From Nocardioides marinisabuli (GTDB taxonomy: Bacteria; Actinomycetota; Actinomycetes; Propionibacteriales; Nocardioidaceae), in contig NZ_CP059163.1 in the NCBI RefSeq assembly GCF_013466785.1, forward strand, positions 3,472,001-3,536,000: a stretch of 64,000 nt of DNA, read 5' to 3'. Both the position numbers and the translations under genes were made by a program. Numbering within the stretch: the first letter of the stretch is position 1; each line of letters opens with the position of its first letter. Of this stretch, positions 11,108 through 16,391 are shown in pieces. The notes beneath the pieces were generated by a model. It had not been told where the DNA came from, searched no databases, and worked only from the letters and a program-made list of their open reading frames with translations.

Positions 11108-11521
11108 ATGTCGGCACGGACCAAGGCGCGCAAGCGCGCCCTCGACGTCCTGTTCTCCAGCGAGCTGCGCGACGAGACCCCGCTCGAGGCCCTCGAGCGG
11201 GTGCTCGCCGACGGCGAGCGCCCCACCACCGAGTACACCGTCACGCTGGTGCGCGGGGTGGCCGAGCACCAGGCCCAGATCGACGAGCTGCTCTCGTCGT
11301 ACTCGCAGGACTGGACGCTGTCGCGGATGCCCGCGGTGGACCGCAACGTGCTGCGCCTGGGAGTCTTCGAGCTGCTGCACGTCGACGACGTGCCCGACGC
11401 CGTCGCGGTCTCCGAGGCGATGGCCCTGGTGCGCGAGCTGTCGACCGACGAGTCGCCGCAGTTCGTCAACGGGGTCCTGGGCACCATCCAGCGCAACAAG
11501 CCGAGCATCCTCGGCGCCTGA
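11108..11521 (+). CDS. nusB: Transcription antitermination factor NusB
   Basis: A 137-residue all-helical RNA-binding protein that binds boxA with NusE and promotes antitermination of rRNA operons. The start SARTKARKRALDVLFSSEL holds the basic boxA-contact helix. MPAVDRNVLRLGVFELL and the late SPQFVNGVLGTIQR helix are family hallmarks. It lies 7 bases after efp. In Streptomyces bldD usually follows nusB before the pyr operon; here it is absent and an 8-kb accessory stretch intervenes. Confidence 0.97.
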   Translation: MSARTKARKRALDVLFSSELRDETPLEALERVLADGERPTTEYTVTLVRGVAEHQAQIDELLSSYSQDWTLSRMPAVDRNVLRLGVFELLHVDDVPDAVAVSEAMALVRELSTDESPQFVNGVLGTIQRNKPSILGA

Positions 11522-11583
11522 GCCCGGCCCCCGGCCCAGGGGGGTGACCCGGCACCACCGGGGGTGGGGTCCATGCTGGTCGC

Positions 11584-12978
11584 ATGAGCGAGCAGCAGAG
11601 CACGGACGTTGACCTCGTCGTCGTCGGGCTCGGGCCCGGCGCCGAGTCGCTGGCCACCGGGGCCGCCGCGGCCGGCCTGCGGGTCGTCGCGGTCGACAAG
11701 CACCTGGTGGGCGGCGAGTGCCCCTACTACGGCTGCGTGCCGTCGAAGATGATGCTGCGCGCCGCCGACAGCCTGGCCGAGGCCCGCCGCGTCTCGCAGC
11801 TCTCGGGCGAGGCGCAGGTCGTGCCGTCCTGGGCGCCGGTGGCCCGGCGCATCTCCGAGGAGGCCACCAGCGGCTGGGACGACCAGATCGCGGTGCAGCG
11901 CCTCGAGGACGCCGGCGTCACCTTCCACCACGGCGTCGGGCGCCTCGACGGCCCCGGTCGCGTGGTCGTCACCCTGCCCGACGGCGCCACCCGCGCCTAC
12001 GAGGCGGCCCGCGGGGTCGTGCTCAACCCCGGCACCCGCCCCGCCGAGCTGCCGATCGAGGGTCTCGCCGGCACGCCGTACTGGACCAACCGCGAGGCGG
12101 TGCAGGCCACCGAGCTGCCCGGCTCGCTGATCGTCGTCGGCGGCGGCCCGATCGGCGCCGAGATGGCCCAGGTCTTCCAGCGCTTCGGGGTGCGCGTCAC
12201 CCTGCTCGAGGCCGGCCCACGCATCCTGGGCCCCGACGAGCCCGAGGCCGCGCAGGTCCTCGAGGAGGTCTTCGTCGAGGAGGGCATGCGCGTGATGACC
12301 GGGGTGGAGATCACCTCGGTGAGCCACGCCGACGGCGGCTTCGAGATCACGCTCGGCTCCGGCGACACGCTGCGCGCCGACAAGCTGCTGCTCGCAGCGG
12401 GCCGCACCCCCAACCTCGACGACATCGGCCTCGAGACCGTCGGTCTCGACCCGCAGGCCCGCACCGTCGAGGTCGACGAGCACCTGCGCGCCGGCGAGCG
12501 GCTCTGGGTGATCGGCGACGTCACCGGCAAGGGCGCCTTCACCCACGTGGCGATGTACCAGTCGGCGATCGCGCTGCGCGACATCACCGGCCAGGACGGG
12601 CCGCCCGCGCAGTACCACGCGGTGCCGCACACCACCTTCACCGATCCCGAGGTCGGCGGGGTCGGCCTGACCGAGGAGCAGGCGCGCGAGGCCGGGCTGC
12701 GGGTGCGCGTCGGCACCGCCCCGATGGAGTCGTCCTCCCGCGGCTGGCTGCACGGCCCCGGCGGCCGGGGGCTGGTCAAGGTCGTCGAGGACGCCGACCG
12801 CGGCGTCCTGGTCGGCGCCACCGCGATGGGACCCTCCGGCGGCGAGGTGCTCGGCTTCCTGGCCGTCGCCGTGCACGCCGAGGTGCCCGTCGAGACCCTG
12901 CAGCAGATGATCTACGCCTACCCGACCTTCCACCGCACCATCGAGACCGCCCTCGGCGCTCTGGAGGAGACCCGATGA
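11584..12978 (+). CDS. Class I pyridine nucleotide-disulfide oxidoreductase, paralogue 1
   Basis: A 464-residue FAD/NAD(P) flavoprotein of the lipoamide dehydrogenase, mercuric reductase and glutathione reductase superfamily. The FAD loop GLGPGAES is near the N-terminus. The redox disulfide is in GGECPYYGCVPSK, a CX4C spacing. A second nucleotide loop is GGGPIGAEMAQVF, and GDVTGKG is the second FAD motif. The C-terminus has YPTFHRTIE, keeping the His/Glu catalytic pair of the dimer interface. It lacks mercuric reductase's extra N-terminal domain and C-terminal cysteine pair, so the substrate is unknown. It overlaps the DUF1206 gene by ATGA, and a second paralogue follows. Confidence 0.9.
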   Translation: MSEQQSTDVDLVVVGLGPGAESLATGAAAAGLRVVAVDKHLVGGECPYYGCVPSKMMLRAADSLAEARRVSQLSGEAQVVPSWAPVARRISEEATSGWDDQIAVQRLEDAGVTFHHGVGRLDGPGRVVVTLPDGATRAYEAARGVVLNPGTRPAELPIEGLAGTPYWTNREAVQATELPGSLIVVGGGPIGAEMAQVFQRFGVRVTLLEAGPRILGPDEPEAAQVLEEVFVEEGMRVMTGVEITSVSHADGGFEITLGSGDTLRADKLLLAAGRTPNLDDIGLETVGLDPQARTVEVDEHLRAGERLWVIGDVTGKGAFTHVAMYQSAIALRDITGQDGPPAQYHAVPHTTFTDPEVGGVGLTEEQAREAGLRVRVGTAPMESSSRGWLHGPGGRGLVKVVEDADRGVLVGATAMGPSGGEVLGFLAVAVHAEVPVETLQQMIYAYPTFHRTIETALGALEETR

Positions 12979-13790
12979 ACCGCTCCGCGTCCGACCTCGG
13001 CCACCAGGCCGAGGACCACCGCTGGGTCGACCACGCGGCGCGAGCCGGCATGGTCGCCTACGGCGTCGTCAACCTGCTCATCGCCTGGCTGGCCCTCCAG
13101 CTGGCCTTCGGCGACCGCGAGGGCAGCACCTCCAGCAGCGGCGCGATGTCGCAGCTGGCCCAGCAGCCCTTCGGCAAGGTCCTGGTCTGGCTGGTGGCGG
13201 TCGGGATGCTGCTGCTGGTCGGCTGGCGCGCCATCGAGGCCGCCTTCGGCCACGACGACGAGGACGGCGCCAAGCGCACCGCCAAGCGGGTCTTCTCGGG
13301 CGGCAAGGCCCTCATCTACCTGGCCATCGCGATCTCCGCGATCCGGGTGGCCACCGGGTCCAGCGGCGGCGGGGGCGGCGGCACCGACTCCACGACCAAG
13401 AAGCTGATGGACCTGCCGGCCGGCCAGACCCTGGTCTTCCTCGTCGGCGCCGGCATCGTCGGCTACGGCATCTTCCAGATCTACCACGCCTGGAGCGGCA
13501 ACTTCCGCGACAACCTGACCGCCGAGGGCGAGCGCGGCGGCTCCGGCACGGCGTACGTCGCCTTCGGCACCGCCGGCTACACCGCCAAGGGCATCGCCAT
13601 CGGCATCGTCGGCTCGCTGTTCCTGTACGCCGCGTGGACGCACTCGGCGAAGAAGTCCGGCGGCCTCGACGTGGCCCTGCAGAAGGTGCTCCAGCAGCCC
13701 TTCGGCCCGTTCCTGCTCGGCGTCCTGGCCCTGGGCATCGGCGCCTACGGGCTGTTCTGCTTCGCGCGAGCCCGGCACCTGTCGCGGTGA
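12975..13790 (+). CDS. DUF1206 membrane protein
   Basis: A 271-residue membrane protein with about six hydrophobic helices arranged as three repeats of a two-helix unit, at roughly residues 22-95, 110-180 and 205-268. Each unit starts with a G..AYG or GYTAKG-type helix. The first and third reach a QQPFG motif and the second has LPAGQ. This triple repeat is the DUF1206 architecture, whose function is not established. A Gly/Ser-rich loop lies near residue 125. It is translationally coupled on both sides (ATGA and GTGA overlaps) to two paralogous flavoprotein reductases, which suggests it partners them in an electron-transfer or envelope redox process; that is inference from context. Confidence 0.88.
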   Translation: MNRSASDLGHQAEDHRWVDHAARAGMVAYGVVNLLIAWLALQLAFGDREGSTSSSGAMSQLAQQPFGKVLVWLVAVGMLLLVGWRAIEAAFGHDDEDGAKRTAKRVFSGGKALIYLAIAISAIRVATGSSGGGGGGTDSTTKKLMDLPAGQTLVFLVGAGIVGYGIFQIYHAWSGNFRDNLTAEGERGGSGTAYVAFGTAGYTAKGIAIGIVGSLFLYAAWTHSAKKSGGLDVALQKVLQQPFGPFLLGVLALGIGAYGLFCFARARHLSR

Positions 13791-15160
13791 GCAGCACCCA
13801 CCGCGTCGTCGACGTCGTCGTCCTCGGCGTCGGCTCCGGGGGCGAGCACGTCGCCCGCAAGCTGGCCGCGGCCGGGCTGCGGGTCGCGGCCGTCGACTCC
13901 CGGCTGGTCGGCGGCGAGTGCCCGTTCTACGGCTGCACGCCCTCCAAGCTGCTCATCCGCGCGGCCGACGCCCTGGCCGAGGCGCGGCGCGCCGACGACC
14001 TCGGCGGCCGGGTCGAGGTGCGCGCCTCCCTCGGGCCCGCCGCACAGCGGATCCGCGAGGCCACCCACGACTGGCACGACGACGACCACGCCGGCACCCT
14101 GGAGGAGGCCGGGGTGCGCGTCGTGCGCGGCCACGGCCGCCTGGCCGGCCCCGGGGTCGTCGAGGTCGACACCCCCGGCGGGCTGAGCCGGCTCACCGCC
14201 ACCCGCGGCGTGGTGCTGAACACCGGCACCGAGCCGACCGTGCCCGACGTCGAGGGCCTCGCCGGGACGCCGTACTGGACCAACCGCGAGGTGCTGACCG
14301 TCTCGGAGGCGCCGGCCTCGCTGGCGCTGGTCGGCGGCGGTCCGATCGGCGTCGAGATCGCCCAGGCGCTGCACCGCTTCGGCACCGAGGTCACGATCGT
14401 CGAGGCCGGCCCGCGGCTGCTGGGCTCGGAGGAGCCCGAGGCCGGCGACCTGCTGGCCCAGGTGCTGCGCGAGGAGGGCGTCGACGTGCGCACCGGCGCC
14501 GACCTGACCCGGGTCGAGCACGACGGCGAGCGCTTCCACCTGCACGTCGACGGCGAGCAGGTCGTCGTCGAGAGGCTCCTGGTGGCGGCCGGCCGCGCCG
14601 AGAACCTGGGCGACGTGGGGCTCGACACGGTGGGCCTGGACCCCGCCGCCGACCACGTCGAGGTCGACGAGCGGATGCGCGCCGGCGAGCGGCTGTGGGC
14701 GGTCGGCGACATCACCGGCAAGGGCCCGTGGACCCACGTCTCGCTCTACCAGGGCGAGCTGGTCGTGCGCGACGTGCTGGGCGACGACGAGGGGCCGTGG
14801 GCCGACTACCGCGCGGTGAGCCGGGTGACCTTCACCGACCCCGAGGTCGGCGCGGTCGGGCTGACCGAGGCCCAGGCGCGCGAGCAGGGCATCGACGTGG
14901 TCGTCGGCACCGCCGACCTCGCGCGCGGGCCCCGCGGGTGGATCCACCAGGCGCAGGGGCTCGTCAAGGTCGTCGCCGACCGCGAGCGCGGGGTCGTGGT
15001 CGGCGCGACCACGATGGCGCCGTACGGCGGGGAGGTGCTGGGGCTGCTGAGCACCGCGGTGCACGCGCAGGTGCCGGTCGCGGTGCTGCGCACGATGCAC
15101 TTCGCCTACCCGACCTTCCACCGCACCATCGAGGTGGCGCTCAAGGAGACCGGTCTGTAG
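13787..15160 (+). CDS. Class I pyridine nucleotide-disulfide oxidoreductase, paralogue 2
   Basis: A 457-residue flavoprotein clearly paralogous to the one ending at 12978. The FAD loop is GVGSGGEHVA and the redox pair lies in GGECPFYGCTPSK (CX4C). The NAD(P) loop is GGGPIGVEIAQAL, GDITGKG is the FAD motif, and YPTFHRTIE the dimer-interface His/Glu motif. The two proteins share motif-level identity along their whole length and probably arose by duplication. The first loop differs (GVGSGG against GLGPGA) and the tail is shorter. The start is GTG 13787, overlapping the DUF1206 stop. The TAG stop here is not followed by a -10-like sequence. Confidence 0.9.
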   Translation: MSSTHRVVDVVVLGVGSGGEHVARKLAAAGLRVAAVDSRLVGGECPFYGCTPSKLLIRAADALAEARRADDLGGRVEVRASLGPAAQRIREATHDWHDDDHAGTLEEAGVRVVRGHGRLAGPGVVEVDTPGGLSRLTATRGVVLNTGTEPTVPDVEGLAGTPYWTNREVLTVSEAPASLALVGGGPIGVEIAQALHRFGTEVTIVEAGPRLLGSEEPEAGDLLAQVLREEGVDVRTGADLTRVEHDGERFHLHVDGEQVVVERLLVAAGRAENLGDVGLDTVGLDPAADHVEVDERMRAGERLWAVGDITGKGPWTHVSLYQGELVVRDVLGDDEGPWADYRAVSRVTFTDPEVGAVGLTEAQAREQGIDVVVGTADLARGPRGWIHQAQGLVKVVADRERGVVVGATTMAPYGGEVLGLLSTAVHAQVPVAVLRTMHFAYPTFHRTIEVALKETGL

Positions 15161-15224: not shown

Positions 15225-16391
15225 ATGACCCAGGGGCACTTCCAGGGCCGTTCGGACACGAGCGACCGGCTCTACACCCGCGAGGAGCTCGACCGGTTCG
15301 CCGCCGGGGTCGGCGACCCGCTGACCGACCCCCTGGGACCGCCGCCCAGCTGGACGCCTGAGGAGGTGTCGGAGGCGACCCGGGAGGTACCGGTCGTGGC
15401 GCCCGCGGCGCCCCCGGCGCCCGCGGCACCCGCGGCACCCGCCCGCGCGGAGGAGCCGCGCCGCTTCATGACCGCGACCGACTTCCTCGACCGGCGCGCC
15501 GAGGAGACCGGCCAGGGCCCCGCGACGTGGGGCTGGCGCGGCGTGCTCAACCGGATGGGCGCCCGGCTGCCGATGGGCCCGGCCGAGCAGACCCACGAGC
15601 AGCAGCGCTCGGTGATCCAGCGCGACTTCGACGGCCCGCGCACCATCGCCTTCATCAACCCCAAGGGCGGCGCCGCCAAGACCACGGGGGTGCTGGCGGC
15701 CGGCTACACCTTCGGCACCGTGCGCGGCGGCGGCGTGGTCGCCTGGGACAACAACGAGACCCGCGGCACCCTGGGCATCCGGGGCACCCGCAGCACCCAC
15801 CGCAACACCACCCGCGAGCTGCTGGAGGACCTGGGCCGCTTCAGCGACGTCTACCAGTCGCGCATCGGCGACCTGGGGGCGTTCGTGCGCTCGCAGGGCG
15901 ACGCGCACTTCGACGTGCTGGCCTCCGACGAGCGCCCCGACGTCACCGGCATGATCCACGCCGACGACTTCGCGGCCGTGCACGCGCTGCTCGAGCGCTT
16001 CTACCGCATCATCCTGGTCGACACCGGCAACAACATGCGCGCCGAGAACTGGCTGGCCAGCGCCGAGCAGGCCGACCTGCTGGTGGTCACCAGCACGGTG
16101 CGCGAGGACACCGGCTACTCGGGGCTGTGGATGCTCGACGCGCTGCAGGACGCCGGGCACACCGACCTCAAGCACAAGTGCGTCACGGTGCTCTCCGACC
16201 CCTCGCCGAAGGTCGACGACAAGCTCGCGGCCGACCTGGTCGACGTCTACGAGCAGCGCACCCGCGCGGTCTACCGGGTGCCCTACGACCCGGCCCTGGT
16301 CGCCGGGTCGGTGGTCCCGTACGCCGAGCTCTCGGCCGCCACGCGCCGCTCCTGGCTGGCGGCGTGCGCCGGGATGGCCGAGTCGCTCTGA
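15225..16391 (+). CDS. ParA/MinD-like P-loop ATPase with Pro/Ala-rich N-terminus
   Basis: A 388-residue protein. Residues 1-90 are low-complexity and proline/alanine-rich. A linker near 75-130 follows, then a deviant Walker A motif, NPKGGAAKTTG (about 143-153), typical of ParA/MinD ATPases. AWDNNETRGTLGIRG corresponds to the switch I region and ILVDTGNNM to the Walker B strand, where the usual D-x-P is D-T-G. A proline-rich N-terminus joined to a ParA-type ATPase resembles mycobacterial EspI-like and other cell-positioning proteins, but no ESX or chromosome partition partner is adjacent. It has a strong ribosome-binding site (GAGGAGGAAG). Function: probable membrane- or polymer-associated positioning ATPase; the specific role is unknown. 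Confidence 0.8.
   Translation: MTQGHFQGRSDTSDRLYTREELDRFAAGVGDPLTDPLGPPPSWTPEEVSEATREVPVVAPAAPPAPAAPAAPARAEEPRRFMTATDFLDRRAEETGQGPATWGWRGVLNRMGARLPMGPAEQTHEQQRSVIQRDFDGPRTIAFINPKGGAAKTTGVLAAGYTFGTVRGGGVVAWDNNETRGTLGIRGTRSTHRNTTRELLEDLGRFSDVYQSRIGDLGAFVRSQGDAHFDVLASDERPDVTGMIHADDFAAVHALLERFYRIILVDTGNNMRAENWLASAEQADLLVVTSTVREDTGYSGLWMLDALQDAGHTDLKHKCVTVLSDPSPKVDDKLAADLVDVYEQRTRAVYRVPYDPALVAGSVVPYAELSAATRRSWLAACAGMAESL

Follow-up and report, generated by a model that had tools for sequence, protein, structure and literature searches.

Three genes lying directly behind nusB in Nocardioides marinisabuli encode two paralogous flavoproteins and, between them, a membrane protein of the DUF1206 family, which to our knowledge has no known function. 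They are contained in the 64,000-nucleotide stretch analysed here (the window), which covers positions 3,472,001 to 3,536,000 of a genome consisting of a single 4.17 Mb contig. Comparison across the genus indicated that the trio is probably a co-expressed accessory unit of separately dispensable genes and not one complex, in which the flavoproteins would act as NADH reductases and the DUF1206 protein probably has a non-redox role. The features of the locus, in window positions, are given below.

11108..11521, + strand: nusB, the anchor of the slot; Pfam NusB and TIGR01951 both above cut-off
11572..11577, + strand: CATGCT, likely the -10 box of a leaderless promoter, 6 nucleotides 5' of the flavoprotein 1 start codon; read from the sequence
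11584..12978, + strand: flavoprotein 1, an FAD/NADH-type oxidoreductase of 464 amino acids; CPYYGC (C46, C51), with Tyr446 and Arg451 replacing the His/Glu dyad
12963..12969, + strand: GGAGGAG within the flavoprotein 1 gene, likely the ribosome-binding site for DUF1206; read from the sequence
12975..13790, + strand: DUF1206 membrane protein of 271 amino acids; three two-helix repeats, six hydrophobic segments; its start lies within the flavoprotein 1 stop (ATGA)
13787..15160, + strand: flavoprotein 2, 457 amino acids, an old paralogue of flavoprotein 1; CPFYGC (C45/C50)
15225..16391, + strand: ParA/MinD-like ATPase (by eye), the next gene; own ribosome-binding site; a frequent downstream neighbour

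The observed gene order is aroC-aroK-aroB-aroQ-efp-nusB followed by flavoprotein 1-DUF1206-flavoprotein 2, the five genes upstream of nusB being those that we take from their sequences to be aroC, aroK, aroB, aroQ and efp. A first-pass annotation of the window had described two CX4C flavoproteins flanking a six-helix DUF1206 protein with ATGA and GTGA overlaps, and this layout was confirmed by the coordinates and by Pfam. Both flavoproteins contain the Pyr_redox_2 and Pyr_redox_dim domains, and the membrane protein belongs to DUF1206 (PF06724) with three matching stretches and a score of 195.8 bits against a cut-off of 26.2. The GTG start of flavoprotein 2 lies within the DUF1206 stop codon, and no ribosome-binding site is visible upstream of it. 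DUF1206 is represented by one gene in the whole genome and the flavoprotein clade by two, both in the trio and 59% identical to each other.

The cluster was found to recur in the genus, with the same array present in N. cremeus (DUF1206 83% identical) and N. oceani (61%). Among 147 genus genomes, DUF1206 was present in 122 and the flavoprotein clade (E ≤ 1e-110) in 99. A flavoprotein was located less than 8 kb from DUF1206 in 54 genomes, on the same strand every time, and in 51 of these the nearest one lay no more than 130 bp from the match edge. Its position was downstream only in 22, on both sides in 19, upstream only in 12 and downstream in two copies in 1. This recurrence across the genus shows that the strain is not alone in having the gene order; uniqueness had been one half of what the first-pass annotation named as counting against its proposal. 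All 54 adjacent cases involved a DUF1206 protein at least 46% identical to that of the window (92 such genes, 59 of them in flavoprotein genomes); none of the 37 less similar genes adjoined a flavoprotein, though 34 of them were in flavoprotein genomes.

The neighbourhoods of 100 of the 129 DUF1206 genes were fetched, comprising the 54 adjacent and 5 non-adjacent cases, 24 of 33 from flavoprotein-free genomes and 17 of 37 of low identity. Starts and gaps in these loci are approximate since the genes were called by our own GC-frame caller, which called no DUF1206 in two of them (L128 and L135). Family searches stand behind the names NusB, DUF1206 and flavoprotein in the window, and, each for a single locus, behind EgtB, EgtD, DUF427, DsbD_TM, redoxin and the OpuC-type components; the cluster names EFP, AroQ, PyrR, PafA/Dop, Pup, ARC, ParA and QOR are those we presume from sequence. 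Across the set, nusB was the anchor of the slot. Of the 33 DUF1206 genes of at least 46% identity in flavoprotein-free genomes, 27 were behind nusB, and nusB directly preceded DUF1206 in all of the 24 most similar (L104-L127). A flavoprotein was likewise still found behind nusB in several genomes with a low-identity DUF1206 and in several with no DUF1206.

Mapping of nusB in 143 of the 147 genomes (the other four gave no nusB match) allowed the two genes to be scored against each other. Where DUF1206 was at nusB, the flavoprotein was at nusB in 50 genomes, elsewhere in 0 and absent in 27; where DUF1206 was elsewhere, the corresponding counts were 23, 12 and 8, and where it was absent they were 7, 5 and 11. 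The flavoprotein thus occupied the nusB position in 30 genomes in which DUF1206 was elsewhere or absent. For scoring of the slot, four distant genomes with neither gene (G099, G111, G166 and G169) were omitted, together with 8 of the remaining 139 whose contig ends within 4 kb behind nusB. The resulting 131 genomes contained both genes in 50 cases, DUF1206 only in 27, the flavoprotein only in 30 and neither in 24 (p 0.36). These 27 and 30 single-gene slots exclude an obligate coupling of the flavoproteins to DUF1206. A tight-looking ATGA/GTGA operon can therefore be made up of genes that occupy one slot and yet are dispensable separately, a caution for assigning function by neighbourhood.

Traced on a species tree with 139 genomes, presence at nusB required 14 changes for DUF1206 and 11 for the flavoprotein. 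Thirteen independent pairs contrasted in DUF1206; among them the flavoprotein was unchanged in a mean of 10.2, changed in the same direction in 2.8 and in the opposite direction in 0. Ten pairs contrasted in the flavoprotein; here DUF1206 was unchanged in a mean of 6.6, changed in the same direction in 2.9 and in the opposite direction in 0.5. The slot association of the two genes was not significant on this tree.

Several points weigh against this reading of separately dispensable genes. The strength of the slot association varies with the choice of genomes, with p values of 0.028 (Fisher, all 143) and 0.36 (131), and of 0.16 once the four distant neither-gene genomes are put back. Flavoprotein genomes that have DUF1206 at nusB always have the flavoprotein there as well (50 versus 0 elsewhere, beside the 27 without a flavoprotein). 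The tree pairs are low-powered, as fewer than six informative pairs cannot reach 0.05. Stop-start overlaps, presented below, are concentrated at the flavoprotein-DUF1206 junctions, though only about one third of these junctions have them. A weak tendency of the two genes to go together is thus possible, and the overlaps and slot data leave room for a real, non-obligate partnership.

A promoter-like signature was observed at the head of the trio. The pattern [CT]AnnnT occurred 5-8 nucleotides before the start codon at 35 of 47 nusB-flavoprotein and 28 of 41 nusB-DUF1206 junctions (shuffle means 1.7 and 1.3), and a stretch resembling a ribosome-binding site was seen at the first gene after nusB in only 3 of 47 and 2 of 41, respectively. 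The pattern was absent from the control junctions efp-nusB (0/97) and flavoprotein-ParA (0/39); in further controls it occurred at AroK-AroB (2/56), AroB-AroQ (3/62) and ParA-QOR (3/19). It was found at DUF1206 following a flavoprotein in 4 of 31 junctions, at a flavoprotein following DUF1206 in 13 of 37, and at overlapping junctions of the two orders in 0 of 13 and 0 of 10. The pattern had been widened from TAnnnT after inspection of the sequences; the stricter form was present at 7 of 47 nusB-flavoprotein and 28 of 41 nusB-DUF1206 junctions, with controls of 0/39 and 0/97. In actinobacteria, [CT]AnnnT just before a start codon that has no ribosome-binding site is the layout of a leaderless promoter, and the signature, including the CATGCT of the window, probably functions as one. 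Since whichever gene stands first behind nusB mostly has such a signature of its own, the trio resembles a small transcription unit in its own right.

Translational overlap of the NTGA type was possible at 11 of 31 flavoprotein-DUF1206 and 10 of 37 DUF1206-flavoprotein junctions, and at the outer junctions in 1 of 47 (nusB-flavoprotein), 1 of 41 (nusB-DUF1206) and 0 of 39 (flavoprotein-ParA). For scale, stop-start overlaps were present at 48 of 56 AroK-AroB and 38 of 41 PyrR-PyrB junctions. Signature and overlaps together therefore suggest that the trio behaves as a small unit that is translationally coupled in about one third of cases. The coupled operon of the first-pass annotation is in this respect upheld as a real cluster, recurrent in the genus and probably co-transcribed.

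The two window flavoproteins fall into different old branches of the flavoprotein tree (supports 100 and 92), a quick tree with a midpoint root in which several inner branches are open, and on this placement a recent tandem duplication was rejected. Rows of one branch were located upstream of DUF1206 in 29 of 38 cases and after it in 1, while those of the other were downstream in 35 of 40 and never before it. Such ordered positions bear on the simplest alternative, namely that the nusB-pyrR gap is merely a permissive insertion site and that the genes are neighbours by virtue of landing there. The near-independence of the two genes in the 131 scored genomes agrees with this, as does the presence of other, unrelated genes in the nusB slot. 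However, the recurrence of DUF1206 and the flavoproteins in ordered positions, the overlaps, and the rarity of a promoter signature at DUF1206 when it stands second point to an integrated unit, and a pure shared-slot effect is considered unlikely.

The active-site residues distinguish the flavoproteins from classical disulfide reductases. Each window flavoprotein has exactly two cysteines, both in the CX4C motif, so a C-terminal cysteine pair and further metal-binding cysteines are lacking. The motif was kept in all 112 genus sequences covering the region, and together with the two Pfam domains it places the flavoproteins among the pyridine nucleotide-disulphide oxidoreductases with a two-cysteine active site; 113 sequences were clustered, including one divergent relative (L178_10). 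At the position of the catalytic His, the 112 sequences have Tyr (103) or Phe (9) and never His, and at that of the catalytic Glu they have Arg in 105 and Glu in none. The C-terminal His/Glu dyad of dihydrolipoyl dehydrogenase (LPD), glutathione and mycothione reductase types was consequently absent from all 112 sequences, while it was retained in the two LPD-like paralogues of the same genome. Alignment with LPD and mercuric reductase (MerA) placed Tyr446 opposite the LPD His and the MerA Tyr. Despite the CX4C motif, a classical disulfide reductase is thus unlikely, and the electrons most likely go to something other than an ordinary disulfide. The residue after beta-2 was Glu in 82, Gln in 27 and Asp in 4 of the 113 sequences. 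An acidic residue at this site, present in 86, is linked to NAD use and points to NADH in most of the flavoproteins. A crude hydrophobicity scale marked one segment in flavoprotein 2, which was taken as noise.

The best solved relatives found with a flavoprotein profile were mercuric reductases and LPD. MerA (TIGR02053; 1zk7, 4k8d) was closest (3.1e-76) and shares the FAD/NAD fold, the CX4C motif and the Tyr at the His position. However, the window flavoproteins score 283.6 and 290.8 bits against an equivalog cut-off of 454.45, lack the C-terminal vicinal cysteines characteristic of MerA, and the clade has mostly Arg where the aligned MerA has Glu. The conclusion of the first-pass annotation that they are not mercuric reductases and lack MerA extras was therefore substantiated. 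Inspection by eye of about 11-13 kb around the trio, made without a mer family search and leaving the rest of the window unscanned, revealed no mer-like genes. LPD (TIGR01350; 2eq6) shares the fold, the motif and the acidic residue after beta-2, but the scores of 296.5 and 281.4 bits fall short of the cut-off of 408.8 and the His/Glu dyad is replaced in the flavoproteins. The Si-specific NAD(P)+ transhydrogenase SthA (NF003585) belongs to the same superfamily and has Tyr at the His position but is not known to carry the CX4C pair; here the flavoproteins score 210.3 and 188.5 bits against 465. Mycothione reductase (TIGR03452), the actinobacterial thiol disulfide reductase, is of the same superfamily as well, with scores of 193 and 181.9 bits against 635.65 and with a catalytic His/Glu that is not kept in the flavoproteins. 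No NCBIfam equivalog was reached at its cut-off among the best 25 of 50 and the best 25 of 45 families.

Members of the flavoprotein clade were also located away from nusB. In one locus (L180:5983-9080), a redoxin, a DsbD_TM/CcdA-type membrane protein and a DUF427 protein precede the clade member on the same strand, and the DUF427 gene overlaps its start. In L159 the clade member stands beside an OpuC-type ABC transporter, and a similar set was recognized by cluster in L168 and in L188, the latter from another family. In L162 it lies beside egtB and egtD, both over cut-off, and members close to ergothioneine genes were also seen in L175 (egtB and egtD by cluster) and L179 (egtD by cluster and position). 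The contexts of the clade away from nusB are suggestive of sulfur or thiol chemistry, though not conclusive. As a side observation, in L187 (genome positions 567293-571292) an LPD-like gene stands beside a paralogue that lacks the first CX4C cysteine and presumably resembles the LpdA-type quinone reductase (1xdi).

The DUF1206 protein of the window has six segments on the crude hydrophobicity scale; on the same scale, 98 relatives have six (48), five (49) or four (1). A Streptomyces coelicolor member of the family (PF06724; TC 9.B.140) is likewise given six hydrophobic segments in a passage of PMC3924187. The window protein has three repeats over the cut-off as well as six segments, and no sequence feature was found that would distinguish it from the family. 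Conserved residues are mainly Gly, Ala, Pro and Trp together with a QPFG motif. Among the 98 genus proteins no Cys column is conserved (best 63/98), while His223 is present in 94 and a single Met column is retained in 88. This His is absent from three more distant relatives that were aligned, and the wider alignment (n=10) contains no invariant or near-invariant His, Cys or Met. The lack of such residues speaks against a thiol or heme carrier; it does not speak against a transporter or a quinone site. A structure model was of low confidence, with a predicted local distance difference test (pLDDT) score of 60.7. Foldseek gave no match to this model at E ≤ 0.001; the matches listed start at E 0.015, include many receptors and have template modelling (TM) scores of at most 0.32, and were taken as uninformative. 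Comparison of the sequence with the PDB gave no match at E ≤ 1.

Outside the genus, the association was not maintained. Of 63 flavoprotein rows in the family, 50 were used and those weaker than 1e-110 excluded; genome G051 has two DUF1206 pieces, one of which was dropped. Both genes were present in 29 of 56 family genomes, no more than expected (odds ratio 0.60, p 0.73), and were adjacent in 2 (G028 and G060). In the other 27 they were far apart on one contig (11) or on different contigs (16), where a contig break could hide adjacency. In a sample of 246 genomes of the phylum, DUF1206 was present in 41 and the flavoprotein clade in 19, at a cut of E ≤ 1e-90 that admits some proteins of 42-44% identity, for example the one in G253. 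Both occurred in 6 genomes including this one, and were non-adjacent in the other 5 (in G208 on different contigs). An unplaced actinomycete metagenome contig (L039) carries nusB-flavoprotein-DUF1206-flavoprotein. In the samples searched, the neighbourhood is thus confined to part of Nocardioidaceae and this contig, and the association is a local one; a literature search found no description of it. In the co-occurrence check suggested in the first-pass annotation, the neighbourhood thus recurs in the genus; beyond it, co-occurrence in the family does not exceed expectation and adjacency was rarely seen.

The first-pass annotation had further suggested a membrane-linked electron path or redox sensing system. 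In such a path the flavoproteins would reduce DUF1206, or be reduced through it, with electrons passing to a quinone or across the membrane. The close, same-strand adjacency in the genus, the overlap of stop and start at about one third of the flavoprotein-DUF1206 junctions, and the DsbD_TM/CcdA-type membrane protein and redoxin adjoining a separate branch of the flavoprotein clade in L180 would be in keeping with it. However, each gene often sits at nusB without the other, and there is therefore no good sign of a single electron-transfer machine. Non-adjacency in 27 of 29 family genomes and in all 5 of the phylum, the absence of a conserved Cys from DUF1206 and the loss of its genus-wide His in distant members point the same way. 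Neither the electron path nor a redox sensor is supported by these results, which do not disprove the path either; we regard the path as quite improbable.

The trio is probably better described as a small transcription unit of accessory genes between nusB and pyrR in Nocardioides, which would be driven by its own leaderless promoter before whichever gene comes first. Gain and loss would have affected its three genes separately, and co-expression through probable co-transcription is more likely than membership of one complex. The flavoproteins would be soluble, FAD-dependent two-cysteine reductases that probably prefer NADH. Electrons would pass from NADH to FAD, then to the CX4C cysteines and finally to an acceptor whose reduction can proceed without the His/Glu acid-base pair, as in enzymes of the mercuric reductase or SthA type; candidates for this acceptor are a metal ion, a quinone and an activated sulfur compound. 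DUF1206 would contribute a six-helix membrane protein, probably without a redox function. Taken singly, the parts of the gene cluster are ordinary. For DUF1206, its repeated occurrence next to a distinctive subfamily of flavoproteins provides a testable starting point.

A more specific reading takes the clade to be a so far undescribed type of NADH-dependent reductase, acting on thione or sulfur compounds of low molecular weight and working with membrane partners that can be exchanged: DUF1206 as a substrate port in the nusB slot, and the CcdA-type protein with redoxin or the OpuC-type transporter in other branches. We consider this reading very unlikely. Reduction of ergothioneine disulfide or a related thione compound would draw on the three genomes in which egtD lies within 1.5-5.4 kb of a clade member (with egtB adjacent in L162), on a thione leaving group that could dispense with the missing His, and on the raw genus count of egtD in 51 of 99 flavoprotein genomes versus 10 of 48 without (p 0.0004). 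However, 48 of the 99 lack egtD, the association is not significant after tree correction, the phylum sample shows egtD in 5 of 19 flavoprotein genomes versus 5.0 expected (65/246 overall), and DUF1206 goes with egtD less than expected (46/122 versus 15/25, p 0.047), so that little likelihood can be given to it. As a general substrate, ergothioneine was rejected on the egtD counts over the 147 genus and 246 phylum genomes, which failed both the tree correction and the phylum comparison.

Two further neighbourhoods were recorded. The gene at 15225-16391 matched neither Pfam nor NCBIfam families at E 0.001; cluster mates of this ParA/MinD-like ATPase were present in 35 of the 100 fetched DUF1206 loci, often 3' of the flavoprotein or DUF1206 genes. 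Low-identity DUF1206 genes were found beside pafA/dop-, pup- and proteasome-like genes in 13 of 17 fetched loci. In L129-L133, L136-L138 and L140-L142, all from other Nocardioides genomes, the more divergent DUF1206 gene is part of the proteasome region but oriented on the opposite strand, beside what we take from sequence to be pafA-like and, mostly, ARC-like genes.

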